This document shows, one piece after another, positions 24,876 to 40,224 of a DNA stretch of 64,000 nucleotides. Origin of the DNA: Bacteroidales bacterium (GTDB lineage: Bacteria; Bacteroidota; Bacteroidia; Bacteroidales; P3). The translations under genes were made by a program, and so were the position numbers. Each line of letters starts with the position of its first letter. Position 1 is the first letter of the stretch. Below the pieces are notes generated by a model. It saw nothing but the letters and a program-made list of their open reading frames with translations. It was not told where the DNA came from and ran no database searches. The stretch is taken from the NCBI GenBank assembly GCA_017451385.1, contig JAFSPS010000020.1, positions 1 through 64,000 on the forward strand. The letters are read 5' to 3'.

Positions 24876-26204
24876 CTATTCCTCGTATGCTGAAAAGATA
24901 CTGCCATTCGTCAGCATCCATTTCCATGCTGGAATGACGTGAACAACTCCATCATCAATTTTTATATCGCGTTCATCCTCATGTGTTACAATATACATTC
25001 TTCGGCAGCCGGTAGCCGTCGAGGCTTCTGCGAGACCTGCTATTTCGCGCCGTAAAGCATCCGAGTCCTCCAAGTCCCACGACACTTGCACCAGCATAAG
25101 TACATCAGCATCACGACTTACAACAAAGTCACATTCGCCAACTCCCTTGAAATAATTAAGTTTGCATGGCATCTCAATTTGCCTATACAAATGCAAAAAA
25201 ACCGCGTTCTCAAGGTTTTTGCCGTTGTCATTGCTTTGCGGCTTGAGGGTTATCCGGCGTAATCCGTTGTCAATACAATAGAATTTTGTATCGGACTTTG
25301 TAGAACGCTGCACGCTGTTGGTGTAACGATACAAAGGCAAAAAAAGATATATGTCTTCGCATTGGTCTGCAAGGGTATATGCGCGGTCCTTGCTAATTGA
25401 TATTCCTTGAGATTTCAGTTCATTATATATCTTGCTAACCGACGTGGGTTTTGTGACATTTTCCATCACTCGGCGTATGTAATACCTCGCCACAAAAGCA
25501 GGATTTATGCTGAAGTGCTCCACCATATCCCTGTATATCATCACATAGTAATAGTCACTAAGTATCTTCTGCCGCAACGACGGGTCTGTGAGTACCACCT
25601 CTGGGAAACCGCCCCATTCCAAATATTCATCCATCAAAGTCGATAAACGAGCCCTCGACGTGTCCCCATACACGTTTGTGTTTATATTGCGAAATCGACA
25701 CATTTCGACAAAGGATAACGGATACTCCTCATACTGTAACGATCTTCCGCGCAGGGCAGATGCTATCTCCGACGATAGCATCTGCGAATTGCTACCCGTA
25801 ATAAAAAGGTTGGGGCAGATGTCCTCATATACCCGTCTGACAAAACTCTGCCATCCCGATGCCATTTGAATCTCATCAAAAAAGATATAGCAGTCACGCA
25901 GGTTGTTACTAGGAAACAATTCTCTATATGCAACAAGTATGATGTCGAGGGTTTCACTATTCCATGTAATACGTTCGTCATCGAAATTAAAAAACAAAAT
26001 CCTACTCCGCTCCGTCCCTTTTTCTATTAGTTTCTCCATCGTGAGCTGTAGCAACATGGATTTTCCGCATCGACGCACTCCAGCCACACTAATAATTTTG
26101 CTACTATCAATAGGAAGAGAGATGCTACGTGGAACGATTTTCTTATCGCCAATCCTTTCCTGCGATGATGTAATCAATTGTTTTATAAGTTCTTTGTCTG
26201 TCAT
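24876..26204 (-). CDS. AAA+ ATPase of the AAA_14/DUF4143 type (ATPase 1)
   Basis: A 442-residue ATPase with Walker A AGVRRCGKSM (about 41-50), Walker B YIFFDEIQM and the sensor-like FITGSNSQML. The C-terminal DUF4143-type domain contains GVGECDFVVSRDADVLMLVQVSW. In many relatives this region holds a PD-(D/E)XK-like EVDF...EVK pattern; here the E-x-K is Q-V-S, so any nuclease activity is probably lost. Function of the family is poorly known. It points away from the giant-gene locus, and its promoter box (26235-26242) and a four-unit 33-bp repeat array (26251-26367) lie just upstream. Two further members of the superfamily occur at 31010 and 38905, not close in sequence. Confidence 0.85.
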   Translation of the reverse strand: MTDKELIKQLITSSQERIGDKKIVPRSISLPIDSSKIISVAGVRRCGKSMLLQLTMEKLIEKGTERSRILFFNFDDERITWNSETLDIILVAYRELFPSNNLRDCYIFFDEIQMASGWQSFVRRVYEDICPNLFITGSNSQMLSSEIASALRGRSLQYEEYPLSFVEMCRFRNINTNVYGDTSRARLSTLMDEYLEWGGFPEVVLTDPSLRQKILSDYYYVMIYRDMVEHFSINPAFVARYYIRRVMENVTKPTSVSKIYNELKSQGISISKDRAYTLADQCEDIYLFLPLYRYTNSVQRSTKSDTKFYCIDNGLRRITLKPQSNDNGKNLENAVFLHLYRQIEMPCKLNYFKGVGECDFVVSRDADVLMLVQVSWDLEDSDALRREIAGLAEASTATGCRRMYIVTHEDERDIKIDDGVVHVIPAWKWMLTNGSIFSAYEE

Positions 26205-26242: not shown

Positions 26243-26250
26243 CAAATTTC

Positions 26251-26367
26251 TTTCCTTTTTGCAAGGAAATAAAAGTTATTTTGTTTCCTTTATACAAGGA
26301 AATAAAAGTTAATTTATTTCCTTTATACAAGGAAAGAAGTGTTGTTATTTTACCTTTTTGCAAGGAA
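26251..26367. repeat. 33-bp direct repeat array upstream of ATPase 1
   Basis: Four units begin at 26251, 26284, 26317 and about 26349. Each contains a palindrome-like core tttccttt-n-caaggaaa (variants with ttgc or atac in the centre) and a spacer close to taaaagttatt. The period of 33 bp is about three helical turns. The array lies in the position of an operator, immediately upstream of the -7 box. Confidence 0.85.
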
Positions 26368-26375
26368 AGAAATTT

Positions 26376-26405
26376 GCAGGGGCGAACTAAAGTGTTCGCC
26401 CCTGC
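26376..26405. terminator. strong hairpin between array and outer inverted repeat
   Basis: A perfect 12-bp stem gcaggggcgaac / gttcgcccctgc with a 6-nt loop. It carries no T-run, so it could insulate the ATPase 1 control region from the giant-gene locus or be a remnant of a repeat element. Confidence 0.55.
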
Positions 26406-26416
26406 GAAAGGAATTT

Positions 26417-26505
26417 ATATGCAACACCTGACGGCGTTGTTTATAGAGGATGTCTTTTTAAGCTATTGATATGCAACCCCGCTGGGGTTGGATTTTCGGC
26501 ATCAA
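26417..26505 (+). repeat. outer inverted repeat, left copy
   Basis: About 89 bp that recur in inverted orientation at 38635-38727 with only a few differences by eye (one 3-bp indel). It contains the palindromic core caaccccgctggggttg preceded by ttgatatg, a REP-like unit also seen in other versions near 38550 and 38600. The two copies flank the whole giant-gene region. Confidence 0.85.
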
Positions 26506-26573
26506 TTTTTTCGTAAAAACCGATAGGGATTACATATCAATAGCAGAAATAGTATCAATCACACTTCCATAGA

Positions 26574-26605
26574 AACGGCGGCAGATTCTTCAATCCGCCG
26601 CCGTT
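26574..26605. terminator. terminator of the minus-strand giant frame
   Basis: Stem aacggcggc / gccgccgtt with a 14-nt loop, 68 bp after the stop codon of the 26674-30492 frame. Its presence shows that the tail-coding frame is equipped as a real 3' end. Confidence 0.7.
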
Positions 26606-26673
26606 ATACTGTCATATATTATGTAATATCGTGTAGATAATAATATATTATGTCTTGGCCCAACTACCGTCGT

Positions 26674-29600
26674 TTAGTCGCATGATGAGCAACCGGTAAT
26701 ACGGTAGGTCGTTATCACTGTTAGTTTAGAACCGTTGGGATAGTTTGTAACATCTGAAACGTCCTGCGTTGTGCCGATGCGTTTGCCTATCATTATTGCT
26801 GGATAGCCGGCAGGAACGCTATAGGTCTTTCTTTCACGAATACATAGGTTGTCAATACCTATCGCTGACCAATAGTCCGTCTCAACAATCTCAAAGCGGT
26901 AGGAGTTGCAGGATTGAACATTGTTGGAAGGCAGCCAGTCGGTGATAGTTCCGCTGAATTCGACCCAATCGGTCGATGCATCATCACCGATGAAGTCGTA
27001 TTGGTTATTGAGGTCTGGACTACGCCAGTAGAAGTTAAGCTCGTCAACACCGACATTGCTCTCATAAATCATGTATTGGAAGGATATTTCGGTTTGGGAA
27101 AGGTCTCCAAAACGGATGATTGGTGAGATGTAACGCGAGTTTGCACCATATTTGTAGCCGCCGTTGTAGTATTGTTGCGAATAGAGGAACAGTGAGTTTC
27201 CATTATATGCATAAACACGTTCACCAGTATAGGACAGATATGCCGATGTGGCTACAGTTGGTTCAGGGCCATAATGGTGGGTAGTATTATTGGTGATATA
27301 GTCGGTTGTGGATAACTTCCACACATCTGACCAAGCAGAGCCCTGAGATGTGGAGTTAGCGTTAGTGCTACCATTGAAGTCGTTATAGTACAGCGTGTCC
27401 CAATAGGTGCCACTGCTTGATGGATAGTAACAGAGGTCTTGCGTTGTGCGTTGCTCAACATTGAGTGTCATTGTCAGCGTGGAGTCGCACCCCTTAGTAG
27501 TATGAAGTGTCGCCACTTTTACGTCTGCCGAGGTAAATGTTTGTCCGTTCCAAGTGTAGGGCAGTTCGGTGTGCTGCACTGTGCGTGTGTCGCTGCCAGA
27601 ATTGCTTTGATTTATTGTCAGCACGAGGGTGTCGTGGACTGTGATAGCGCACTCGCTTGGCGTGTAGCTTGGGCCATAGAATGTGCCGCTGGCGGCGTGT
27701 GAGAGGCCGTCGCCATTGCCATACGTGCCACTGGCAGGCCATGTGTAGTTGTCGCATGCCGAAACCATGTATTTGCTTCCTGCACAAGCATCGTGGTTAA
27801 TCGTCAGGTGAAGGGTGTCGCGGTTTTGACAGACACCATTAGCATAGTAAACGCCAAGATATGTGCCATCTTCGTTATAGTTCAGACCAGAGCCGTGGCC
27901 GAAAGCACCACTTGTAGGCCATGTGTAGCTACCGTTTGCAGTGTTGGCATAGGGCGTGCCAGAGGCATGATTGACAGAGAGGTTCAGACGGTCGGTAACC
28001 GAACACGAAGTTCCGTTTTCTGAAATGGTATGAGTGTAGCCCGTGTTTGTCTGGTCGGTAGTGTAGGTAGTGCCGTTTATCCAGCGGTAGCTCTCGCAGG
28101 CCGCTTCATTATAGGTCTCGCCTGCCGTCTGCTTATGGATGACAAGGCCTGAGTAGTGGGGACAGCCGTAGCTGTTGGTCGTCACGCTGTTGCTGCTATA
28201 GTAGCCACCATTGGGGATGCTGGCAATGTTGATGGATTTGGTTTCGGTAACCAACAGGTTATCAACAGCAGCACCACCGTTAAAGAGGTCTTGGAAGAAG
28301 AAGCACAGACGGTAGGTGCCTGCAGTGCTTTGTATCGAGGACATCGTGAGGTTCACAGTCTGCCAAGAGGTGTAGCCCGCAGCGTTGGCAGCACCATAAG
28401 TGTGTGTGCGTGCCGTGCTCTGTACGGTAGTGAGGCTCTGGGTACTTGGGCCATTGGCTGCCGACAGCCATCCGTTGAAACCGTTATGATAATTTCTGTT
28501 GCACGACGACGATGACGAACGGCCAGGTGCACGCCATTTATATTGTATATTGACGTTGGCGGGATTGGTGACGGTGAACACAGGAGACCACACGTAGGCT
28601 GTGCTGGCGCAATAACTATTGTTCTGATAGGCAAGACACATCAGCTGTCCGTCGGTCACACTTGAACTGCCTGTGTAACCGTAATATCGAGTACCATTAT
28701 AGGTAATATATGCCGCGATTTTCCATATATAAGCATCTCCTCTACCATATTGGTCGCGACGTACCCAGTAGTTATAGCAGTCGGTACCATAGGTGCTACC
28801 CGAGTACCATCCGCCTGCTCCTGATGAGAGACCACTGTGGAAGTCATCTTCGAGCAATGTCTCCGTATATGAGTATGTGTTTGTTCCAGCACATACCGTT
28901 ACGCGCTGTGCATCGTTGGCGAAGGTCACGCCGTAGTTGAAGGTCTTGGTCTGCGTGAGGGGGCATCCTGCGGCGTTGGTGGAGACGTAGCTGTAGGTGC
29001 CGGGGACGGCGTAGGTGTTGCCGTTCCATGTGGTTGTCGTGGTACACACGTATTCCGAGCCGAGGTTCTCGCTGCTGCTGTGGTTGATGGTGAGGTGGAG
29101 CGTCACGATACTGTCGCAGCCTCTGGCGTTGCCGCCAGTGATGGTATATACAGGAGAAGTGGTGCTGGCGGTGTAGGTCTGGCCGTCTATCCATGTGTAG
29201 CTGTCGCACTCCACGCGCACATCGGTATGTGTCGTGGCGTGGCTGATGGTGAGGTTGAGGGTGCGCGTGTCGGGGCAGCCCTCGCCGTTGGTGGTCTGGT
29301 AGGTGGCGGTGCTGTTGTTCTCGGTGTAGGTGTTGCCGTCTATCCACTCATAGCTGTCGCATGCTGCCTGTACGTCGGTGGTGACCGAGCTGTGCCCCAG
29401 CGTGAGGCTGAGGGTCACCGTGCTGTCGCAGCCTGCGGCATTGGTAGTCTGGTAGGTGGCGGTGCTGTTGGATGCGGTGTAGGTGTTGCCGTCTATCCAC
29501 TCGTAGCTGTCGCACGCATGTTGAACATCCGTATAGGTGCTGCTGTGCTTCAGCACAAGGTTGAGCGTCACGGTGCTGTCGCAACCGTTGGCGGCGGTGT

Positions 29601-30492
29601 ATCTGTGGGTTGGCGTGCTGCTCTCGGTGTAGGTGATGCCGTGCCATGTGAAGTTGTCGCAGATGTCGTTGACCAAGGTGTCGCCTATCTTGGAGGCGTT
29701 GATGACGAGGTGCAGTGTCGTCACGCTGTCGCATCCGTTGGCAGAGCCGTTTGTGGTGGTATAAGTGTAGTCGCCCGTGGCGAGGTAGGGCGTGCCATGC
29801 CATGTGTAGCTGTCGCATGACGTCTGGCTCTCCTCGCCCTGTCCTATGGGGCGTATGGTGAGGTGCAGCGTCACCACGCTATCTACCCCCGTGGATGCCG
29901 TGAAGGTGTGCGTGGCTGCCGCCTCGCTGCTCTCGGTGTAGGTGTTGCCGTACCATGTGAACGAGCCGCAGGCCACTGCCGTGGTGTCGCTATAGATGGT
30001 GTTGACGATAGTCAGGTACAGCGTGTCGCTGCTAGGGCATCCGTCGCCGTTGGTGTAGGAGGAGACGTAGGTGTGCGTGCCGTCGTCGGTGTAGGTCTCG
30101 CCGGTGCCGTGGGTGCCGTTCTGCGAGCCGTCGTTGTCTGTCTCAGCCCATGTGAACGTCTCTATGGCGGTGTGTGTGAAGGCGAGGTGCGTGGGCTCGA
30201 GGATTGTCAGCGTGGCGCTGTGCGTCGCCGGCGTGCCTGCGCATCCGCCGCGCGAGGGCGTGGCGGTGACGGTGTAGGTGGTCTGCACCGTGGGCGACAC
30301 CTCTATCGATGCCGTGCCCACGTTGGCGGGCATGCCCGCCGTGGCGCCGGCGGGTTCCGCGCTCCACGAGTAGCTCACCTCGTCGGCAGCGGGCGTGAAC
30401 GACGCCGCGCCGTCGAGCACTACTGACGAGCCGCGGCACACCGTGCCGTCCGCCAGACTTCCTATAATGCCGCTTATGGGAAGATGCTGCAT
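26674..30492 (-). CDS. silent giant surface-protein tail (no signal peptide), paralogue of 32553-38477
   Basis: A 1272-codon frame beginning MQHLPISG. It lacks a signal peptide and the N-terminal domain, and no TAnnTTTG box lies upstream on this strand. From its seventh residue it matches the plus-strand giant protein at residue 568 onward, almost perfectly for 158 residues, then as a diverged paralogue. It consists of an Ig-like/PKD-like domain part, many Cys-Asp-Ser-x-x-W repeats (CDSYEWIDGNTYTASNSTAT type, about 45 residues each) and two jelly-roll-like modules (about residues 560-740 and 1010-1250) ending in IDNLCIRE-like strands. Its own terminator follows. I read it as a stored alternative tail; a degenerate gene copy is the alternative. 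Confidence 0.8.
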   Translation of the reverse strand: MQHLPISGIIGSLADGTVCRGSSVVLDGAASFTPAADEVSYSWSAEPAGATAGMPANVGTASIEVSPTVQTTYTVTATPSRGGCAGTPATHSATLTILEPTHLAFTHTAIETFTWAETDNDGSQNGTHGTGETYTDDGTHTYVSSYTNGDGCPSSDTLYLTIVNTIYSDTTAVACGSFTWYGNTYTESSEAAATHTFTASTGVDSVVTLHLTIRPIGQGEESQTSCDSYTWHGTPYLATGDYTYTTTNGSANGCDSVTTLHLVINASKIGDTLVNDICDNFTWHGITYTESSTPTHRYTAANGCDSTVTLNLVLKHSSTYTDVQHACDSYEWIDGNTYTASNSTATYQTTNAAGCDSTVTLSLTLGHSSVTTDVQAACDSYEWIDGNTYTENNSTATYQTTNGEGCPDTRTLNLTISHATTHTDVRVECDSYTWIDGQTYTASTTSPVYTITGGNARGCDSIVTLHLTINHSSSENLGSEYVCTTTTTWNGNTYAVPGTYSYVSTNAAGCPLTQTKTFNYGVTFANDAQRVTVCAGTNTYSYTETLLEDDFHSGLSSGAGGWYSGSTYGTDCYNYWVRRDQYGRGDAYIWKIAAYITYNGTRYYGYTGSSSVTDGQLMCLAYQNNSYCASTAYVWSPVFTVTNPANVNIQYKWRAPGRSSSSSCNRNYHNGFNGWLSAANGPSTQSLTTVQSTARTHTYGAANAAGYTSWQTVNLTMSSIQSTAGTYRLCFFFQDLFNGGAAVDNLLVTETKSINIASIPNGGYYSSNSVTTNSYGCPHYSGLVIHKQTAGETYNEAACESYRWINGTTYTTDQTNTGYTHTISENGTSCSVTDRLNLSVNHASGTPYANTANGSYTWPTSGAFGHGSGLNYNEDGTYLGVYYANGVCQNRDTLHLTINHDACAGSKYMVSACDNYTWPASGTYGNGDGLSHAASGTFYGPSYTPSECAITVHDTLVLTINQSNSGSDTRTVQHTELPYTWNGQTFTSADVKVATLHTTKGCDSTLTMTLNVEQRTTQDLCYYPSSSGTYWDTLYYNDFNGSTNANSTSQGSAWSDVWKLSTTDYITNNTTHHYGPEPTVATSAYLSYTGERVYAYNGNSLFLYSQQYYNGGYKYGANSRYISPIIRFGDLSQTEISFQYMIYESNVGVDELNFYWRSPDLNNQYDFIGDDASTDWVEFSGTITDWLPSNNVQSCNSYRFEIVETDYWSAIGIDNLCIRERKTYSVPAGYPAIMIGKRIGTTQDVSDVTNYPNGSKLTVITTYRITGCSSCD
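30001..30474 (-). repeat. inner inverted repeat, left arm (about 474 bp)
   Basis: Inverted near-identical copy of 34254-34727. By eye I count about six substitutions and no indels. The arm is much more GC-rich than its surroundings and encodes the same protein segment (SGIIGSLADGTVCRGSSVVL to DTLYLTIVN) in frame in both genes. Its outer end lies 18 bp inside the minus-strand frame. Confidence 0.93.
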
Positions 30493-30681
30493 ATTATAAG
30501 ATACTGAAATATTGAATATTATATATTATGCAACGACAATGGGTATCCACTTATTAGTGCGTAATTCACCTTGAGGCTGAACTCAGCAGGAGTTATATAT
30601 GAAGAAATAATCTGAAATTCAATCCTTTCAACTATGAGCCTTGCCTATATGCAATTCTTTTTTTGAGGTTACTTAAAGCAG
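30493..30681. other. intergenic region upstream of the silent tail
   Basis: About 190 bp of AT-rich sequence between the minus-strand tail frame and the 23-bp array. On the minus strand I find no TAnnTTTG box and no signal-peptide-coding sequence that could serve the tail. Confidence 0.6.
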
Positions 30682-30957
30682 AAACGCCACAAATCACAAA
30701 GTAAAAACGCCACAAATCACAAAGTAAAAACGCCACAAATCACAAAGTAAAAACGCCACAAATCACAAAGTAAAAACGCCACAAATCGCAAAGTAAAAAC
30801 GCCACAAATCGCAAAGTAAAAACGCCACAAATCACAAAGTAAAAACGCCACAAATCGCAAAGTAAAAACGCCACAAATCACAAAGTAAAAATGCCACAAA
30901 TCACAAAGTAAAAACGCCACAAATCACAAAGTAAAAACGCCACAAATCGCAAAATAA
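30682..30957. repeat. 23-bp direct repeat array upstream of ATPase 2
   Basis: Twelve head-to-tail 23-bp units (aaacgccacaaatcacaaag plus taa) begin at 30682 and every 23 bp to 30935. Variation is almost confined to one A/G position (atcaca or atcgca); one unit has aaatgcc. The near-perfect order indicates recent expansion. The reading frames it creates on both strands are artefacts. It ends 25 bp before the -7 box of ATPase 2. Confidence 0.95.
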
Positions 30958-30981
30958 TTTTTGTAAATTAAATTATTTCAG

Positions 30982-30989
30982 TATTTTTG
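30982..30989 (+). promoter_or_regulatory. -7 box of ATPase 2
   Basis: TATTTTTG, matching TAnnTTTG, with a TTG about 20 bp upstream and the ATG at 31010. Confidence 0.65.
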
Positions 30990-31009
30990 CAAAAAAATAA
31001 AACAAAGGA

Positions 31010-32284
31010 ATGTCATACAGAAATAGACTAATTGAAAGTAGCTTACAAGACAAGCTGGACGCTATGGGAGCATTACTCATAGAAGGCCCTAAAGCCTGTG
31101 GCAAAACAACCACAGCCGAACAGTTTGCCAAGAGTAAACTCTATATGGATGACCCTGAGCAGATAGAGCAGAATTTGCAGATGGCAAGTACAAACATAAA
31201 AAAGCTGCTGCAAGGAGCCACGCCACGACTTATAGACGAATGGCAATTGGCGCCGCAGCTGTGGGATGCTATCCGCTTTGAGGTGGACCATCGCGGAGGC
31301 GAAGGTCTTTTCATCCTCACGGGGTCGGCAGTGCCTGCTGACGTGAGCAGGATAAGCCATTCCGGTGCAGGCCGCTTCGGATGGATTACCATGCGAACCA
31401 TGAGTCTGTGGGAATCTGGCGATTCTTCGGGCGAAGTGAGCCTGTCTGCCCTATTCAGAGGCGAACATGATGTGTGGGCGTCTCATGATACAACGATAGA
31501 CCAATTAGCCTACCTGATATGCCGTGGCGGATGGCCTCGGGCTGTCATGGCTCGCTCCGAGCGGTCGGCATTGCTACAAGTTGGCGAATACTATCATGCG
31601 ATAACGCGTTCTGACATCTCTCGTGTAGACAATGTGAAGCGCAATGCAGAGAGGGTTCAGCGACTGATGCGTTCTTACTCCCGTTATCAGGGAACGCAGG
31701 TGGCAGCCACGGCTATAATGTCCGACTTGTCGGCTAACGAAAAAACAGATATAAGCCTTGTTACCATCGAAGGCTACCTCTCTGCGTTGCGCAAGATTTT
31801 CATCATAGAGGATCTTCCTGCGTGGAATCCCAACCTGCGTAGCCGCACAGCTATACGCACATCCGACACTCGCTATTTCGCCGACTCTTCCATTGCTACA
31901 ACAGCCCTTGGCATCGGCCCCGAAGACCTCGTGAACGACTTGCGCACTTTCGGTCTTTTTTTCGAGACACTTGCAATACACGATTTACGCATTTATGCTG
32001 AGACGATTGGAGGCTCTGTCTATCATTATCGCGACTCCAACGGTCTTGAATGCGATGCCGTTATTCATCTGCGCAATGGCAGCTATGGCCTCGTGGAAAT
32101 CAAACTCGGCGGAGACAAACTTATAGAGGAAGGAGCAAAAAACCTACACAAGCTCGCCTCTATAATCGATACAACTAAGATGAAGTCTCCCTCTTTTTTG
32201 ATGATTCTCATTGGTGTCGGCACTCATGCTTTTCAGCGCAAAGACGGTGTGCTGGTAGTGCCGTTAAGCACTCTTAGAGAATAA
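31010..32284 (+). CDS. AAA+ ATPase of the AAA_14/DUF4143 type (ATPase 2)
   Basis: A 424-residue ATPase inside the potentially invertible segment. Walker A is GPKACGKTT (26-34), Walker B region PRLIDEWQLAP, sensor-like LFILTGSAVP. The C-terminal DUF4143 domain has FGLFFETLAIHDLRIYAE followed by SNGLECDAVIHLRNGSYGLV and EIKLGGDK, keeping the D...E-x-K pattern of a PD-(D/E)XK-like fold. It is divergent from the minus-strand tail and co-directional with the giant gene, from which it is separated by a hairpin at 32388-32413. The family is abundant and largely uncharacterised. Its placement between the two giant genes raises the possibility of a role in their rearrangement or regulation, which is speculation. 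Confidence 0.88.
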   Translation: MSYRNRLIESSLQDKLDAMGALLIEGPKACGKTTTAEQFAKSKLYMDDPEQIEQNLQMASTNIKKLLQGATPRLIDEWQLAPQLWDAIRFEVDHRGGEGLFILTGSAVPADVSRISHSGAGRFGWITMRTMSLWESGDSSGEVSLSALFRGEHDVWASHDTTIDQLAYLICRGGWPRAVMARSERSALLQVGEYYHAITRSDISRVDNVKRNAERVQRLMRSYSRYQGTQVAATAIMSDLSANEKTDISLVTIEGYLSALRKIFIIEDLPAWNPNLRSRTAIRTSDTRYFADSSIATTALGIGPEDLVNDLRTFGLFFETLAIHDLRIYAETIGGSVYHYRDSNGLECDAVIHLRNGSYGLVEIKLGGDKLIEEGAKNLHKLASIIDTTKMKSPSFLMILIGVGTHAFQRKDGVLVVPLSTLRE

Positions 32285-32387
32285 AGAATGAACCCGTGAT
32301 AATTGTTGCCATTTACGACAACCCACCACATGATACTTGGGCGTTCTACACCATAATGTAGCGTGTGTAGATGCACATCAGCTCATA

Positions 32388-32413
32388 TTTTTCCACAAAC
32401 AAATGTGGAAAAA
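32388..32413. terminator. terminator after ATPase 2
   Basis: A perfect 10-bp stem tttttccaca / tgtggaaaaa with a 6-nt loop, about 105 bp after the stop codon and upstream of the giant-gene promoter. Confidence 0.7.
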
Positions 32414-32438
32414 ATTTGCAATTATCCAAATGTATTTA

Positions 32439-32446
32439 TATTTTTG
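32439..32446 (+). promoter_or_regulatory. -7 box of the giant surface-protein gene
   Basis: TATTTTTG with TTTG about 20 bp upstream. It predicts a leader of roughly 100 nt before the ATG at 32553. It lies close to the centre of both inverted repeat pairs. Confidence 0.65.
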
Positions 32447-32552
32447 CTAAAATTTTAATGTGCCGTATAGTTTTTTGCCGTGTAGTGCAAGAAATTGACA
32501 TACAGCATATTTGATATATATGTAAGAAGTAGAAACAGAAACATACCGCAAT

Positions 32553-35500
32553 ATGAGCAAACAATTACTACGTTCGTTATTTGTTTTATTTATCGCTATC
32601 ATTTTCTGCACTCCCACGCATGCACAGCGCACGCCGCAGAAATTCTCCTACCAAGCCACTGTGCGCAACAGTGCAGGACAGATTCTGAGCAATGCTACTG
32701 TACGCGTGCGTATATCTATTTTCAAGGATTCGGAGTCTGGCACAACGATGTTTCGTGAGAGCCATACACCTACAACCAATATCAACGGCGTTTTCAACGT
32801 CGTCGTTGGCGAGGGTTCGCATGAGTCTGGCAATATAGCGGACATTGACTGGGGCAACGGCATCTATTTCCTTGTCAACGATGTGGATGTTGATAATGAC
32901 GGTGTCTTTGACCTCACAGCGTCGCAACAGCTTCTCGCCGTGCCCTATGCTCTGCACTGCGACGAGTATCAAAGCCTTTTTGATGTTGTGGCTCGCAACA
33001 ACCGTGCTGGTATGCATCAGCTCAAAGATGTCAAAAACCCCACCGACCCTCAAGATGCTGTAACAAAGTTCTACCTCGACTCTATCATGAACAGCATCTC
33101 GTCGCTGCTCTCCAACCCACGTCGCGACACTGTGGCTACAGCTTGTATCTCGCTCAACTGGCGTGGTGACACCTACTCGCAGTCGGGTCTCTACATGCAC
33201 ATATTGCGTGGCGCCGGATGCGATGGCACCTGCGACAGCGTCCTTGTCCTTCACCTATCTATCAACGCTGGCTCGCACAACGTCATTCGCGACACCTCCT
33301 GCTCCGGCTCCTATACATGGGTCTCTCAGAAAGGTAGCAACGGCGGCGGACAGACATTCACCTCCAGCGGCACCTATTATAATGATTATACCGATGGCAA
33401 CGGCTGTGCCTCGGCAGACACCCTACGCCTTAAAGTCGGCGTAGAAACCAGTGGCAACAAATATGTTGAGGAATGTGAGCAATACACATGGAATGAGATG
33501 GGCAACACCATCGGCACCTATTATGCCAGCAACATAGACAATGCCGACAAGCCCACAGCACGACGCAGAAAAGATAACTCGCAAGGATGCGACTCCATAG
33601 TGACTCTATATCTAACCATCCTCCAACCGCAATATGGAAACCTTGACACTGCCGTCTGCGACATCTTCGTATGGCAGGCAGACGAGGATGGCGACGGCAA
33701 CACCTACACCGCCAGCACCACCGAGCCGTACCCCGTATCGCCACGCCTCTCCGGCTCTGCTTCCAATGGGTGCGACTCCTTGACCTACCTCCACCTCACT
33801 ATCAATCACAACAACGGTATCTATGACAACCAAACAATCTGTGAGGGCAGCAGCCTTTCTTGGTATGGTGGTACATACACTGATGCTGTCAACGACAATT
33901 CCGTCCGTCATCCCTTCAATGATATCAACGGATGCCCTGGCGACAGCATCCTCGTGCTCTCCGTCAATAGTCGTCCGTCCGTAACGCTCGGTGACGAAAT
34001 CAGCTCTACGGCTGGCACCACCTTATGTGCTGGCAATAGCACCACGCTTTCCATCGTACCCACGGCATATGATGGTGCCATCAGCTACCAGTGGTCGCCT
34101 GCCGATGGCCTTTCATCCGCCTCGGCCAGCAGCGTCACCGCCACGCCTGCCGACACCATTACCTATACCGTTACCGTCACTGCCTCGCGCGAAGCTTGCG
34201 AGGATGTGGTGGCGTCAAAAAACATTACAATTAATGTCATTGAACTTCCGACAAGCGGCATTATAGGAAGTCTGGCGGACGGCACGGTGTGCCGCGGCTC
34301 GTCAGTAGTGCTCGACGGCGCGGCGTCGTTCACGCCCGCTGCCGACGAGGTGAGCTACTCGTGGAGCGCGGAACCCGCCGGCGCCACGGCAGGCATGCCC
34401 GCCAACGTGGGCACGGCATCGATAGAGGTCTCGCCCACGGTGCAGACCACCTACACCGTCACCGCCACGCCCTCGCGCGGCGGATGCGCAGGCACGCCGG
34501 CGACGCACAGCGCCACGCTGACAATCCTCGAGCCCACGCACCTCGCCTTCACTCACACCGCCATAGAGACGTTCACATGGGCTGAGACAGACAACGACGG
34601 CTCGCAGAACGGCACCCACGGCACCGGCGAGACCTACACCGACGACGGCACGCACACCTACGTCTCCTCCTACACCAACGCCGACGGATGCCCCAGCAGC
34701 GACACGCTGTACCTGACCATCGTCAATACCAAATATGGTGACACCACGGCAGTGGCTTGCGGGCGCTTCCGCTGGCACGGCATAACCTACACCGAGAGCA
34801 CCGACACAGCCACACATACCTACACCAGCTACCAGGGAGTGGATAGCATCGTGACGCTCCATCTCACCATCAAGCCGTGGGGCACCTCCAACGAAGCGGC
34901 TGAAGCGTGCGACAGCTACACGTGGAAGGGCGAGACCTATGATGAGTCGGGTACCTACACCTATACAGTCACGGGTGGTTCTGCCAACGGATGCGACAGT
35001 ATAGTCAGCCTTGCCCTTACCATCAAGGCTTCCAAGACGGGTACTGCTACAGCTTCGGTGTGCGATAGTTACACATGGGAAGGTACGACCTATACAGAGA
35101 GTGGCACCCCCACCCATGCCTATACTGCCGCCAACGAGTGCGACAGTGTTGTGACGCTCAACCTTACCATACGCCGTAGCACCACCTATGCCGACGTGCA
35201 GGCAGCGTGCGACAGTTACGAATGGATAGACGGCAACACCTATACCGCCTCCAACAGCACCGCCACCCACGCCTTGATGAACTCTGCGGGCTGTGATAGC
35301 ACGATAACGCTCAACCTCACCCTTGGATACAGTACTGTTTCTACTGACGTGCAGTCGGCGTGCGACAGTTACGAATGGCTTGACGGCAATACCTACACCG
35401 AGGACAACAACACCGCCACCTACTTCGGCACCAACGGGCAGGGCTGTCCCGACACCAAGACTCTCAACCTGACCATCAATCATGCTACAGTACATACTGA

Positions 35501-38477
35501 CATACGCGTGGAGTGCGACAGCTACACATGGATAGACGGCCAGACTTACACTGCCAGCACCACCACGCCCACCTACACCGTCACCGGCGGCAACAGCAAG
35601 GGCTGCGACAGCGTGGTGACGCTGTACCTCACCATCAACGCCAGCACAAGCACCAACCTCGGCTCCGAATACGTCTGTTCCACCACCACGACATGGCACG
35701 GCAACACCTACGCCGTCCCCGGCACCTACAGCTACGTCTCGTCCAACGCCGCAGGATGCCCCCTCACCGAGACCAAGACGTTTAACTACGGCGTAACCTT
35801 CGCCAACAATGCACAACGTGTCACAGTATGTGCTGGAACGACAGGTTACCCATATTATGATACGTTATTGTTTGAGCAATTTACATCTGCACCATCGTAT
35901 GCAAGTAACAATACATCTACAACACAATGGATACGTAGAAGTTATGCCAGCTACAATAATTGGGCACAAACCGCACGTGCTCGAAATGGCTCTACCTATT
36001 ATTATGATTATAATTCAGGCAACACTAACGGAGGTTTTCTATGTGTTATGTCTCCTGGTAATAGCAGTTACCAGGGAGCTTGCTCATACATTTGGACACC
36101 AACATTCACCTACACCAATCCCGCCAATACAACAATAAGATTTCGTTTCAAGAAAGTTCCTTATAGTACTTCAAGAGATAATCTATTCATATACATTACT
36201 AATGCGAGTGACCCTAATTCTGTTGCGATTGAATCGGCCAATGTTAACCAGAATGGAACACAGATTGTCTCCAGTAATACCACACATGTCGTTAGTAATA
36301 GTACAACAGGATGGACTGCATACGAATATGCGTTTAATTCACTACGGAAATACACAAATGGAAGCTGGAGCAATATCGGAAGTTTGTCTGCAGGTACATA
36401 TCGAATCAAGTTTATGTATCAAGACAACTTAGGTCTTTTTGCAGGTATTGATGACATATTGATTAGAGAGCAAAAGAACCTTGATTTGACGAGTGTACCT
36501 AATGGTGGATACTATAGCAACACAACAGTTACGACCAATGGTTACGGATGTCCACATTATTCTGGTCTTGTGATTCACAAGCAGACCGCGGGCGAAACAT
36601 ATAATGAGGTGGCCTGCGAGAGTTATCGCTGGATAAACAATACCACCTACACCACCAACCAGACCAACACAGGCTACACCCACACAATATCCGAGAACGG
36701 CACTTCCTGCTCCATTACCGACCGTCTGAACCTTACTATAGGCTCTTCGGCTGGTGACGAATACACACACACCGCATCGAATGCCTACACATGGCCCACA
36801 AGCGGTGCGATGGGACATGGCACTGGCATGGTTTATACCGAAAGTGGCGACTACACGGGTCCAAATTACGGCAATGGTTCGTGTAATAGTCGCGACGTAT
36901 TGCACCTAACAATAGATAATAATTGTTCCGGGTTACGTAATACTATTACAGTATGCGACAACTACACATGGTTAACTTCTGGTGCGGCAGGACATGGCAC
37001 AGGCTCTAACTACACTGCCGAAGGTAGGTATGTCGGTCCTGCCTACAACACCGATGTCTGCACAGGATTGCATGACACCATCGACCTCGTAATCACGGGC
37101 AACGTGACGGAGGACTTCTACATCACCGCCTGCGACAGCTACACATGGCCTGCCAACAGTCAGACCTACACCAGCGTGCCCGGTAGCGCCCCGAGCGTGA
37201 CGCTCACCAGTGCAGCAGGTTGCGACAGCACCGTGACGCTGCGTCTCACCCTTGCCTCCAGCACCAGCAATACCTCCACGCCTACCTACTGTGGTGGCAA
37301 CTACACATGGAGTACCAATGGCGAGACCTACACCGAGGCAGGCACCTATACCTATAACACAGTGAACGCCGCAGGCTGTCCGCAGACCGAGACCCTCGTA
37401 CTGACCGATGGCAACGAATACAATGTGGTGCGCGACACCGTATGTCTGACAAATCCTGTCGTTGTCACTTATGATACAATTGCTGCTTATGATTTCGAGG
37501 ACGATATGGACGACAGCGACTGGGGCGTGTGGAATATGTGCAACACGGGCGGATGGAACTTCTATGAGCAGTGCTATGGTTATCCTCCGAGAACAGGTAG
37601 CGGCCAGCTGGCAGCTCCCGACGAGGGCAACCAATGCTATGGCGGCGATTTTTCCAATGGAGCTTATCGAAATAGGGTGATGACAGCCATCAACCTCTGC
37701 TGGTCGGCAGCATTTACAATCACTGATCCTGCAAACACAACCATTGAGTTTTGGGCACAAAAACCTGCATGGAGTGGAACAGTTGGTGTTTTGGGAGTTT
37801 ATATTGTACCAACAAGCAACTGGCTTATTCCAGATTTATCGGGTACTGAGATTTTATATAGTGGTGGAACTGTAGCTATCACGAATTGGGCAAGATACCA
37901 ATACCCATGTTCATCACTTAGTGCGGGCACTTACCGCCTCAAGTTCGTCCACCAGGACAACGACGGCGACCACGATGGCATAGACGACATTATAATTTTC
38001 CATCGTAACGTCACGGATTACAGTAGTTATGGTGCAGGTGCCACTGTCGAGGACGTGACGCGTACGCCAATAGCAAATGGTTGTTCTCGCATTACGGGTA
38101 CAACGCATTTTGTTCAATCAACTGGTCAAAGCAAGGTTGTTGAGGTTTGCGACAGCTACACCTGGGTGGATAATGGCATGACCGTGGGCACCTATACCAC
38201 CAGCGGCACCTACACCCACACCTATACCGCTAACGGATGCCCCGTGACCAACACCCTCATCCTGACTATCAACCATGGCGTTGGCAACGAATATGGCTGC
38301 AACTGTGCCGACTATCCAGAGAACTGCCCCGCCAACCGCTACACATGGACCACCAGCGGCCTCAACGGTCACGGTACGGGACAGACCTACACCACCAGCG
38401 GCACCTATGTCGGTCCTTACTACACCGACAGCCACGGTTGCTACGCACGCGACACACTGAAACTGACAATCAACTAA
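32553..38477 (+). CDS. giant repetitive surface protein, expressed version
   Basis: A 1974-residue exported protein. The signal peptide (MSKQLLRSLFVLFIAIIFCT to about HAQ) is followed by an N-terminal domain (PQKFSYQATVRNSAGQILSN to QQLLAVPYALH, residues 25-135) common at the start of large Bacteroidota surface proteins. Then come Cys-rich repeats of about 45 residues (CDSYTW...TYT...GCDS...LTL type), two Ig/PKD-like domains (about 470-660), further repeats, and two jelly-roll-like modules (about residues 1105-1310 and 1640-1830, each closing with GIDDI(L/I)I). It ends at DTLKLTIN without a recognisable T9SS sorting domain. Residues 568-725 are encoded in the inner inverted repeat. Likely an adhesin or structural surface protein; the partner is unknown. 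Confidence 0.87.
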   Translation: MSKQLLRSLFVLFIAIIFCTPTHAQRTPQKFSYQATVRNSAGQILSNATVRVRISIFKDSESGTTMFRESHTPTTNINGVFNVVVGEGSHESGNIADIDWGNGIYFLVNDVDVDNDGVFDLTASQQLLAVPYALHCDEYQSLFDVVARNNRAGMHQLKDVKNPTDPQDAVTKFYLDSIMNSISSLLSNPRRDTVATACISLNWRGDTYSQSGLYMHILRGAGCDGTCDSVLVLHLSINAGSHNVIRDTSCSGSYTWVSQKGSNGGGQTFTSSGTYYNDYTDGNGCASADTLRLKVGVETSGNKYVEECEQYTWNEMGNTIGTYYASNIDNADKPTARRRKDNSQGCDSIVTLYLTILQPQYGNLDTAVCDIFVWQADEDGDGNTYTASTTEPYPVSPRLSGSASNGCDSLTYLHLTINHNNGIYDNQTICEGSSLSWYGGTYTDAVNDNSVRHPFNDINGCPGDSILVLSVNSRPSVTLGDEISSTAGTTLCAGNSTTLSIVPTAYDGAISYQWSPADGLSSASASSVTATPADTITYTVTVTASREACEDVVASKNITINVIELPTSGIIGSLADGTVCRGSSVVLDGAASFTPAADEVSYSWSAEPAGATAGMPANVGTASIEVSPTVQTTYTVTATPSRGGCAGTPATHSATLTILEPTHLAFTHTAIETFTWAETDNDGSQNGTHGTGETYTDDGTHTYVSSYTNADGCPSSDTLYLTIVNTKYGDTTAVACGRFRWHGITYTESTDTATHTYTSYQGVDSIVTLHLTIKPWGTSNEAAEACDSYTWKGETYDESGTYTYTVTGGSANGCDSIVSLALTIKASKTGTATASVCDSYTWEGTTYTESGTPTHAYTAANECDSVVTLNLTIRRSTTYADVQAACDSYEWIDGNTYTASNSTATHALMNSAGCDSTITLNLTLGYSTVSTDVQSACDSYEWLDGNTYTEDNNTATYFGTNGQGCPDTKTLNLTINHATVHTDIRVECDSYTWIDGQTYTASTTTPTYTVTGGNSKGCDSVVTLYLTINASTSTNLGSEYVCSTTTTWHGNTYAVPGTYSYVSSNAAGCPLTETKTFNYGVTFANNAQRVTVCAGTTGYPYYDTLLFEQFTSAPSYASNNTSTTQWIRRSYASYNNWAQTARARNGSTYYYDYNSGNTNGGFLCVMSPGNSSYQGACSYIWTPTFTYTNPANTTIRFRFKKVPYSTSRDNLFIYITNASDPNSVAIESANVNQNGTQIVSSNTTHVVSNSTTGWTAYEYAFNSLRKYTNGSWSNIGSLSAGTYRIKFMYQDNLGLFAGIDDILIREQKNLDLTSVPNGGYYSNTTVTTNGYGCPHYSGLVIHKQTAGETYNEVACESYRWINNTTYTTNQTNTGYTHTISENGTSCSITDRLNLTIGSSAGDEYTHTASNAYTWPTSGAMGHGTGMVYTESGDYTGPNYGNGSCNSRDVLHLTIDNNCSGLRNTITVCDNYTWLTSGAAGHGTGSNYTAEGRYVGPAYNTDVCTGLHDTIDLVITGNVTEDFYITACDSYTWPANSQTYTSVPGSAPSVTLTSAAGCDSTVTLRLTLASSTSNTSTPTYCGGNYTWSTNGETYTEAGTYTYNTVNAAGCPQTETLVLTDGNEYNVVRDTVCLTNPVVVTYDTIAAYDFEDDMDDSDWGVWNMCNTGGWNFYEQCYGYPPRTGSGQLAAPDEGNQCYGGDFSNGAYRNRVMTAINLCWSAAFTITDPANTTIEFWAQKPAWSGTVGVLGVYIVPTSNWLIPDLSGTEILYSGGTVAITNWARYQYPCSSLSAGTYRLKFVHQDNDGDHDGIDDIIIFHRNVTDYSSYGAGATVEDVTRTPIANGCSRITGTTHFVQSTGQSKVVEVCDSYTWVDNGMTVGTYTTSGTYTHTYTANGCPVTNTLILTINHGVGNEYGCNCADYPENCPANRYTWTTSGLNGHGTGQTYTTSGTYVGPYYTDSHGCYARDTLKLTIN
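34254..34727 (+). repeat. inner inverted repeat, right arm (about 474 bp)
   Basis: Inverted near-identical copy of 30001-30474, lying within the giant gene and starting at codon 568. The arms are 3.78 kb apart. Both arms are read in the same phase, so a crossover anywhere in them keeps an open frame. Confidence 0.93.
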
Positions 38478-38503
38478 CCCATAATTAAGGTTATCCTGCT
38501 ATG

Positions 38504-38542
38504 ACGAGCGGTGCCAGAGGACAGACCTCTGGCACCGCTCGT
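38504..38542 (+). terminator. terminator of the giant gene
   Basis: A perfect 17-bp stem, acgagcggtgccagagg with its complement, and a 5-nt loop, 26 bp after the stop codon. Confidence 0.85.
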
Positions 38543-38547
38543 TGTAT

Positions 38548-38634
38548 TGATATGCAACCTCTACGAGGTTGTGATGAATGGATTTGGCAAAAAAGTCTAT
38601 TGATATGAAATCCCTAACGGGATTTACGACACCA
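38548..38634. repeat. REP-like palindromic units
   Basis: Two related palindromes preceded by attgatatg: caacctctacgaggttg (about 38556-38572) and aaatccctaacgggattt (about 38608-38625). The same layout, attgatatg plus a short palindrome, is seen inside the outer inverted repeats at 26417 and 38635, and a looser version lies near 43720. Confidence 0.7.
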
Positions 38635-38727
38635 TTGATGCCGAAAAGCCAACCCCAGCGGGGTTGCATATCAATAGCTTAAAAAGACATCCTCCTCCAT
38701 AAACAACGCCGTCAGGTGTTGCATATT
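38635..38727 (-). repeat. outer inverted repeat, right copy
   Basis: Inverted copy of 26417-26505. Together the copies enclose 12.3 kb with a centre near 32.57 kb, close to the centre of the inner pair near 32.36 kb. Confidence 0.85.
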
Positions 38728-38731
38728 AAGA

Positions 38732-38888
38732 TGAGAAAAAGTGTATTTTTTCAATGGTCAAATTTGAGAAAAAGTGTATTTTCGCAGTGGTCAAAATTGA
38801 GAAAAAGTGCATTTTTCAATGGTCAAAAATTAGAAAAAGTGTATTTTTGCAGTAGTCAAAATTGAAAAAAATTGTATTGTTAAAATTT
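38732..38888. repeat. 33-bp direct repeat array upstream of ATPase 3
   Basis: Five units begin at 38732, 38765, 38798, 38831 and 38863. Each reads close to tgagaaaaagtgtattttt followed by caatggtcaaaa or gcagtggtcaaaa; the fifth is degenerate. The array ends about 15 bp before the start codon of ATPase 3, so it occupies the promoter position. No clear TAnnTTTG box is visible. Confidence 0.88.
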
Positions 38889-38904
38889 ATACCACTAATA
38901 ATCA

Positions 38905-40224
38905 ATGTTATATAGAAAGATAGGGAATAGAATAGAACAGTACCTTAAAAAAGGGGGCAATAAGATACTGCTTGTCGATGGTGCGCGTCAGGTAGGCAAG
39001 TCCTATATAATCAGACATGTAGGCAAGCGTTTGTTTAAGAACTATGTAGAGATAAACCTTCTTGAGGACTATAACGACAGGCGTCTGTTTATGTCGGCAC
39101 GCAACGTAGAAGATTTCTATATACGTCTCAGCATTGTTGCTGGCGGACGGCTCGGAAGCAGGGATGACACATTGATTTTTCTTGATGAAATTCAGGTATA
39201 TCCGCATCTGCTCACGATGTTAAAGTTTTTGAAAACAGATGACAGATTTAGATACATAGCAAGTGGTTCTTTACTTGGCGTGGCTCTTGCAAAGACCGCC
39301 TCGATACCTATAGGGAGCATAGAGACAATGCATATGTATCCACTCGATTTTGAGGAGTTTGTGATGGCAAATGGCGTAGGAGGGGAGGCAATAAAATATA
39401 TGAAAGATTGTTGTCTGAGTCGGCAGTCATTAGACGAAAGTTTGCACGACAAAATGATGGATTTATTTAAGAAGTATTTAATAGTTGGAGGGATGCCCGA
39501 TGCGGTAAACATTTTTATAGAGAGCCAGAACCTCATAGAGATACGACGTGTACAACAAGAGATATATGATTATTACAAAGCAGATGCATCACAATATGAT
39601 GTCCAGAACAGACTGAAGATAAGAAATGTATATGCAATGGTGCCATCGAATATGACAAACAAGCATAAAAGAATATACGCCAACAAAATAGAAAACAAAA
39701 AAGGCAAACGCTTCTCGGATTATGCGGAAGAGTTTGACTACATAATACAGTCTGGGATTGCCTTAGAGGTCTGCGCTGTGTCTCAACCGCATTTCCCTTT
39801 ATTAGAATCAAGCAAAAAAAATCTGGTAAAACTATACCTTAGCGATGTTGGTATTTTGACATCGCTGCTGTATAACAACAACTTCATACCATTGTTAGAT
39901 TCGTTGCCCAGTATAAACCTCGGCTCTGTTTACGAATCGGTAGTGGCGCAGGAGTTGCATGCACACAGTCATAGCCTCTACTACTATGACAATAAGAAAA
40001 ACGGAGAGGTTGATTTTCTTGTAGAGCGTTTTGACCTACTGTCTGTAATCCCTATAGAAGTTAAGTCTGGCAAAGATTACAAAACTCACAGTGCGCTCAA
40101 CGCTTTTATGAGCAATAAGGATTATAACGTAAAAAGCGCCATAGTACTATCCAACGAACGCGAGGTATATACCGACGCAATGGGGATAACGTATATGCCG
40201 GTATATTATGCTATGTTTATATGA
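38905..40224 (+). CDS. AAA+ ATPase of the AAA_14/DUF4143 type (ATPase 3)
   Basis: A 439-residue ATPase with Walker A VDGARQVGKSYI (about 24-35), Walker B TLIFLDEIQVYP and the sensor-like RYIASGSLLGVAL. The C-terminal DUF4143 domain is well preserved: LGSVYESVVAQELHAHSHSL, then KNGEVDFLVERFDLLSVIPI and EVKSGKDYKTHSAL, an intact PD-(D/E)XK-like EVDF...EVKSGK pattern. Of the three ATPases in this region it is the closest to the standard AAA_14/DUF4143 form. It faces away from the giant gene, mirroring ATPase 1 on the other side. Cellular role unknown. Confidence 0.88.
   Translation: MLYRKIGNRIEQYLKKGGNKILLVDGARQVGKSYIIRHVGKRLFKNYVEINLLEDYNDRRLFMSARNVEDFYIRLSIVAGGRLGSRDDTLIFLDEIQVYPHLLTMLKFLKTDDRFRYIASGSLLGVALAKTASIPIGSIETMHMYPLDFEEFVMANGVGGEAIKYMKDCCLSRQSLDESLHDKMMDLFKKYLIVGGMPDAVNIFIESQNLIEIRRVQQEIYDYYKADASQYDVQNRLKIRNVYAMVPSNMTNKHKRIYANKIENKKGKRFSDYAEEFDYIIQSGIALEVCAVSQPHFPLLESSKKNLVKLYLSDVGILTSLLYNNNFIPLLDSLPSINLGSVYESVVAQELHAHSHSLYYYDNKKNGEVDFLVERFDLLSVIPIEVKSGKDYKTHSALNAFMSNKDYNVKSAIVLSNEREVYTDAMGITYMPVYYAMFI

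Follow-up and report, generated by a model that had tools for sequence, protein, structure and literature searches.

A 64,000-nucleotide stretch of DNA from a Bacteroidales bacterium (contig JAFSPS010000020.1, positions 1 to 64,000; hereafter 'the window') contains two divergent giant genes that share, in the same reading frame, the arms of a long inverted repeat, with a single 'head' between the arms that belongs to only one of them. This arrangement is probably a tail-switching surface-protein locus, in which crossover between the arms would invert the segment between them and join the head to either of two 'tails'. Two lines of evidence carry this reading: the arms are almost identical at synonymous sites, and the headless tail is neither broken nor evolving faster than its headed counterpart. 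Together, as far as sequence comparison can tell, these are the prediction of a two-tail switch that is in use.

Layout of the head, arms and tails

The features of the locus, in window coordinates, are as follows.

26376-26405, minus strand: terminator-like hairpin after the minus tail
26417-26543, no strand assigned: left copy of the outer repeat, past the end of the minus tail, with a 91.5% inverted match to 38597-38726
26674-30492, minus strand: minus open reading frame (ORF) of 1272 amino acids, comprising the alternative tail preceded by arm 1 and, before that, 6 codons, with no leader and no in-frame stop
30001-30474, minus strand: arm 1, codons 7-164 of the minus ORF, encoding an Ig-like domain and one cysteine/SYTW-type repeat; synonymous divergence (dS) 0.05, guanine plus cytosine (G+C) content 0.675
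30475-34253, no strand assigned: putative invertible segment, the 3.78 kb between the arms, holding a spacer with a 23-bp tandem array, ATPase 2, a promoter and the head
30675-30957, no strand assigned: tandem array with a 23-bp unit, 12.3 copies, in the gap that separates ATPase 2 from the minus start
31010-32284, plus strand: ATPase 2, with AAA_14 and DUF4143 domains, a PADLOC candidate of family PDC-S01 (E 8e-66) and a putative passenger of the segment
32415-32446, plus strand: promoter box of the head, Bacteroidota-type (TTTG, a 20-nt spacer, TATTTTTG), from a pattern scan
32553-34253, plus strand: head of 567 codons, with a hydrophobic leader, an N-terminal domain, repeats and an Ig-like/PKD domain
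34254-34727, plus strand: arm 2, codons 568-725 of the plus ORF
34728-38477, plus strand: plus tail, continuous with the head as assembled
38597-38726, no strand assigned: right copy of the outer repeat, past the end of the plus tail

The two arms are in register over 474 bp with no insertion or deletion and, with the first base counted, differ at seven positions (30001, 30010, 30034, 30047, 30175, 30298 and 30337); the sequence-only reading that first described the locus had the length, the absence of indels and the shared frame right, and undercounted the mismatches at about six. For a repeat of this length and identity a chance origin was rejected. The inner edge of the arms is sharp, with 26 mismatches across the 40 bases from 30480; in the minus gene it lies six codons from the start, in the plus gene at codon 568. 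Outward from the arms the homology is weaker (82.9% across 1618 bp with the arm included, and about three quarters identical outside it), an additional homologous patch links the two genes at 80.6% (27980-28215 and 36498-36733), and BLAST aligns nothing in the final third of the minus tail with the plus tail. The outer inverted repeat, 130 bp long, lies just past both stop codons and occurs nowhere else in the genome except as a 28-base match at 38798, and the arm itself has a single weak DNA match elsewhere, of 72% at 38370-38471, within the plus tail. These alignments give the locus the look of a single head set amid an inverted duplication that takes in arm, tail and downstream flank. Each outer repeat is closely bordered on its outer side by a tandem array with a 33-bp period, the two arrays (26245-26372 and 38732-38878) having different units.

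That the inverted arms are an assembly artefact, produced by a fold-back chimera, is extremely improbable. The genome is a draft in 54 contigs, which gives such errors some scope, but the tails and flanks differ as those of a fold-back would not, and the longest exact run within the arms is 138 bp, a length that paired short reads should reach. As a separate observation on the assembly, a 96% identical stretch is found at two contig ends (L087 7391-7664, at the end of G000:C27, and L091 1-274, at the start of C10), and the assembly seems to break at repeats of that kind.

Because the arm begins at a codon boundary in both genes, with 567 codons preceding it in the plus gene and six in the minus gene, either orientation yields a complete head-tail frame, the protein having 1974 residues as assembled and a computed 1833 residues in the alternative. 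The junction of head and arm (residue 568) sits between two Ig-like/PKD matches, so that a crossover there would preserve the order of domains. Neither giant protein was matched as a whole in Pfam (E 0.001); head residues 16-91 hit the NCBIfam model for the N-domain of mosaic adhesive trimer proteins at E 9e-11, with 41.9 bits where the cut-off asks for 60. Two type IX proteins are also encoded in the window, one with a sorting domain and one a plug protein; together with the promoter type they suggest a Bacteroidota-type host. Library scans of the two giant proteins found a sorting domain in neither.

The plus gene has, as first described, a promoter box, a leader and 567 codons ahead of the arm, and the leader in particular sets it apart from the minus frame. 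The maximum hydrophobicity over the first 75 residues of the open frame (a crude measure rather than a signal-peptide predictor, in which for a few genes the stretch partly precedes the first ATG) is 3.63 for the plus gene and 1.86 for the minus frame. The control comprised 20 repeat-rich frames of at least 500 codons beginning after a stop, taken from the window and 20 stretches of the same genome; values for the 18 other giant frames ran from 2.70 to 3.70, and all 18 and the plus gene have a strong hydrophobic leader, which the minus frame lacks.

Promoters proved a poorer guide. A scan with the strict Bacteroidota motif (TTTG-N16-24-TAnnTTTG) found the box of the head and another for ATPase 2 at 30960-30989, and none on the minus strand of 26300-38900. 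The absence of a box on the minus side, which had been offered alongside the absent leader, says little, because 17 of the 18 other giant genes of the genome also have no strict box within 350 bp, and the missing minus-side promoter was dropped as evidence. It had also been proposed that each tail has its own terminator; a hairpin (26405-26376) does follow the minus tail, and none was called after the plus tail.

These controls also bear on whether the minus ORF might be expressed on its own, its product staying in the cytoplasm or being exported by another route. A start codon and an open frame are present, and a promoter could escape a scan that misses those of nearly all other giant genes, but the protein would be leaderless in a family in which every compared frame has a leader, and its cysteine-rich repeats would suit an exported protein. 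We consider independent production very unlikely.

Divergence of the arms and constraint on the tails

In a codon alignment of the two genes, the 158 arm codons differ by six synonymous changes and one nonsynonymous change, and the next 374 aligned codons show a dS of 0.88 and a nonsynonymous divergence (dN) of 0.21 (dN/dS about 0.23). Synonymous changes occupy 6 of 123 sites in the arms versus 136 of 262 sites outside (Fisher p 3e-22), a contrast that would not be expected from constraint on the protein; the arms are most likely exchanging sequence, and the fall from 0.88 to 0.05 in dS suggests that recombination homogenises them. In the tails adjoining the arm, by comparison, 291 of 1122 positions differ, or about a quarter. 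The G+C content of the arm was reached by none of 1471 other 474-bp segments sampled from the window and 20 stretches of the same genome (maximum 0.667), which is what GC-biased conversion would give.

Conversion might also act alone, with the minus ORF serving as a silent donor that supplies sequence to the expressed gene and the segment never inverting. The homogenised arms, and a lower dS at minus codons 427-546 (0.46-0.56), do resemble conversion tracts; however, the divergence of the tails right beside the arm and the unmatched end of the minus tail indicate that donation has not spread far, and crossovers between inverted arms would be expected to invert the segment anyway. A donor without inversion therefore seems quite improbable.

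The second line of evidence concerns the tail that has no head. The minus ORF is free of stops over its 1272 codons, whereas simulated neutral change at the divergence of the tails (0.45 per site) introduces a mean of 34.5. Relative-rate tests used as outgroup a relative from genome G111 (L127, 1520 amino acids, about 48% identical in the middle region) and counted 23 changes in the minus versus 20 in the plus gene over 368 sites (p 0.76), 76 versus 76 over 628 sites of the C-terminal part, and 102 versus 95 over 1007 sites of the whole tail (p 0.67). By these measures both tails are open and conserved, and the headless tail is no faster than the headed one; in a tail silent over most of its past, a disrupted frame and a raised rate of change would be expected.

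The proposed switch would work as follows. A single head (promoter, leader, N-terminal domain and first repeats) would be flanked by two long inverted arms, each forming the opening part of a different outward-pointing tail. A RecA-type homologous crossover between the arms, for which 474 bp is in principle sufficient, would invert the 3.78-kb segment so that the head meets the other tail, with the promoter, the head and the ATPase gene with its own promoter travelling together. The product would change from 1974 to 1833 residues, the unjoined tail would be silent or unexported, and repeated recombination and gene conversion would hold the arms near-identical while the tails diverge. Inversion, its mechanism, expression of the joined tail only, location at the surface and biological use are all things that we infer. 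The genome has one match to RecA (PF00154) and six to tyrosine recombinases (PF00589), the latter all elsewhere; the claim that no recombinase is in view holds for the tyrosine type across the 74-kb contig (C49) on which the window lies, serine recombinases not having been searched for.

Several points weigh against a working switch. No flipped copy was found when head and arm were searched in 120 genomes of the genus, in GTDB contigs and in viral contigs, with one genome per species; the opposite orientation that the sequence-only reading had suggested seeking among relatives did not appear, and of its case for inversion the layout, the frames, the single leader and the 1833-residue alternative are what stands. 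(One assembled genome may show just one of two orientations.) Both dN/dS and the relative-rate tests average over the time since duplication and are compatible with a head that was lost recently. Under neutrality, the minus ORF would have stayed intact since the last homogenisation with a probability of about 0.05 if 0.025 substitutions per site have accumulated, or of 0.26 for 0.01; the second value is the nearer one if the four differences at the outer edge of the arm are old. Gene conversion without inversion also produces high identity between arms; the high G+C is not confined to them, the adjoining minus codons being likewise G+C-rich (0.82 at third codon positions, GC3); and the lack of a minus-side promoter box carries no information.

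Much of this would fit a recently 'beheaded' paralog: two full divergent genes, one of which lost its head through deletion or insertion of the ATPase gene, with arms homogenised by a last conversion and the minus ORF now a young pseudogene. With a single genome and so small a divergence between the arms, the loss could be recent; the higher of the two neutral probabilities would allow a frame that is still open, and the G111 relative, which adjoins DUF481, is a single headed gene. Against this, six of the seven arm differences are synonymous (neutral probability of at most one nonsynonymous change 0.002-0.003, although some differences may be tract edges or changes in the plus copy), the lower of the two probabilities makes an intact frame a rare outcome, and a few bases at most separate the end of the arm from the missing head, at a point between two domain matches. 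Recent beheading is, in our judgement, a rather unlikely history, and the head-flipping switch is the reading carried forward here.

If the locus does flip, it would be a surface switch in a Bacteroidota-type bacterium that swaps more than 1000 residues of a giant protein, with no dedicated recombinase of the tyrosine type found on its contig. The contrast in synonymous divergence, the leader control and the relative-rate test can be applied to any assembled genome in the search for further cases. One published short-read method discards reads that map equally well at several places (PMC5903667), and methods of that kind would likely miss switches with long arms.

Relatives in the genus and the ATPase genes

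No close relative of the arm was found in the 120 genomes (the genome studied here included), the GTDB contigs or the viral contigs. The best matches in the genus reach about 38-41% identity over most of the arm, the GTDB search returned four distant loci (from a set that may exclude this genome or very near ones), and the viral contigs held no relative. When the genes flanking the locus were followed through 119 genomes, Tex was matched in 112 and DUF481 in 33; among nine Tex and six DUF481 places inspected, head and tail matches occurred only beside DUF481 in G111 (L127), as one headed gene for which neither L127 nor L154 contains an inverted partner. One stretch of G081 (L118) combines a neighbouring pseudouridine synthase (79%) with the closest head in the genus (57%), and carries a headed gene of 426 amino acids and a gene of 2188 amino acids on the same strand, with no inverted repeat.

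A scan for inverted repeats covered 98 longer stretches (78 from relatives and 20 from the same genome as the window, 75 of them with a head match, and two overlapping on G111:C51) and found repeats of at least 100 bp in six. Two have them within head genes: L132 (G111:C51), with 487 bp at 88%, and L194 (G081:C84), with 144 bp at 98.6%, where the arms span the gene start and leader and the contig terminates inside the second gene. In L175 and L209 the repeats, spaced about 13 and 18 kb, lie outside a head that falls in the interval between them, and L183 and L189 have the head outside the repeats. Every gene in L132 and L194 retains its own head, so that a flip would act at the shared gene start, nearer to the sap arrangement discussed below. 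The two loci are worth describing in their own right: L132 (7729-12934) contains three head-type surface genes in mixed orientation, with inverted repeats of 79-88% over their starts and an AAA_14 ATPase between, and L194 (2089-4103) two divergent head-type genes whose near-identical starts surround an AAA_14/DUF4143 ATPase.

The same type of ATPase recurs at the switch. ATPase 2 matches the PADLOC model PDC-S01, which would place it in what is only a candidate family of anti-phage defence; DUF4143 is presumably a PD-(D/E)XK-like nuclease domain. Three divergent AAA_14/DUF4143 ATPases (24876-26204, 31010-32284 and 38905-40224) flank and sit inside the putative switch, with about 22% identity where significantly alignable, and each has a different PDC-S01 model as its best match. 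The number of copies may be variable in the 23-bp array that precedes ATPase 2.

An AAA_14 ATPase lies between the arms in all three loci with inverted repeats in head-type genes (the window, L132 and L194), with DUF4143 as well in the window and L194 and AAA_14 only in L132. Of 70 stretches of relatives that carry a head, 3 contain a match, no more than 4 kb from the head, to a hidden Markov model built from the three ATPases of the window; they include both stretches with inverted head genes (two of two versus 1 of 68, p 0.001, a comparison made post hoc). Among 24 ATPase genes examined in three genomes, several of them near contig ends, three lie between head-gene arms, one (L216) lies between 83-bp repeats, and 20 are not between inverted repeats of at least 60 bp. 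The case for the ATPase as a general inversion factor was judged weak, and on these counts it is more probably a passenger than a cause. In L216 (8550-9894, G000:C46) the repeats, of about 83 bp and 83% identity, tightly frame another DUF4143 match, perhaps as a small mobile unit. Elsewhere in the window, 14056-16092 encodes a reverse transcriptase matching AbiP2 (PADLOC, E 6e-155), with a run of 54-bp-period repeats at 15808-16006.

A broader and improbable conjecture would make the locus a head-flip switch that has no recombinase of its own and is maintained by arm-to-arm conversion, and would place it in a class in the genus marked by an AAA_14-type ATPase between inverted surface-gene arms, the ATPase helping to start recombination and coupling surface variation to a candidate phage-defence gene.

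Comparison with known switches

Invertons known from Bacteroidota are associated with short repeats. In Bacteroidales, loci for surface products are switched by inversion, including intragenic 'shufflon' regions, and are linked to invertase genes (PMC11892184, PMC10939037). The locus described here differs in its long arms, its moving head and the lack of a tyrosine invertase beside the segment (the serine type was not searched for). Among the literature matches listed, all open-licence papers, none reports a locus of this type in Bacteroidota.

In the sap S-layer system of Campylobacter fetus the shared homology lies at gene starts and it is the promoter that moves. Inversion there reportedly occurs also without RecA, so that long homology is no proof of RecA dependence. 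That system has one promoter and several homologous copies, only the copy behind the promoter being transcribed (PMC3887049, PMC5634654). Like sap, the present locus has copies of a surface protein gene that share long, near-identical inverted homology (474 bp with seven mismatches); unlike sap, its arm starts only at codon 568 of the plus gene, and the promoter would move together with a 567-codon head.

Nearer still are two systems in which a head is flipped. In the mba and UU172 elements of Ureaplasma, a conserved 5' part, which in mba carries the signal peptide and anchor, is fused by inversion to either of two ORFs, and paralogs have similar 5' parts (PMC3047005). There the inversion is described as site-specific, at short sequences in small genomes, and repeat numbers vary too (PMC3047005), whereas the arms here are long. 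At the vsa locus of Mycoplasma pulmonis, inversion sets the promoter, the ribosome binding site and the first 714 coding nucleotides before a silent vsa 3' end, and a tyrosine-type recombinase encoded at the locus, HvsR, acts at target sites (PMC2268961); the contig studied here has no tyrosine recombinase. The moving head, put forward as unusual by the sequence-only reading, is so beside the recombinase-linked invertons of Bacteroidota, but flipping a head before silent tails is known already from vsa and mba. What is different here is the Bacteroidota-type host, the long homologous arms (474 bp), the giant two-tail repeat protein and the passenger ATPase gene within the segment.

By analogy, then, the locus would work like vsa and mba, set apart from them by its long homologous arms and by the absence of a tyrosine recombinase on its contig. 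It shares with vsa one head and alternative tails, a promoter and 5' coding part between inverted sequences, and a tail (here presumably silent) outside them, and the closest working model for it is the vsa locus of M. pulmonis.

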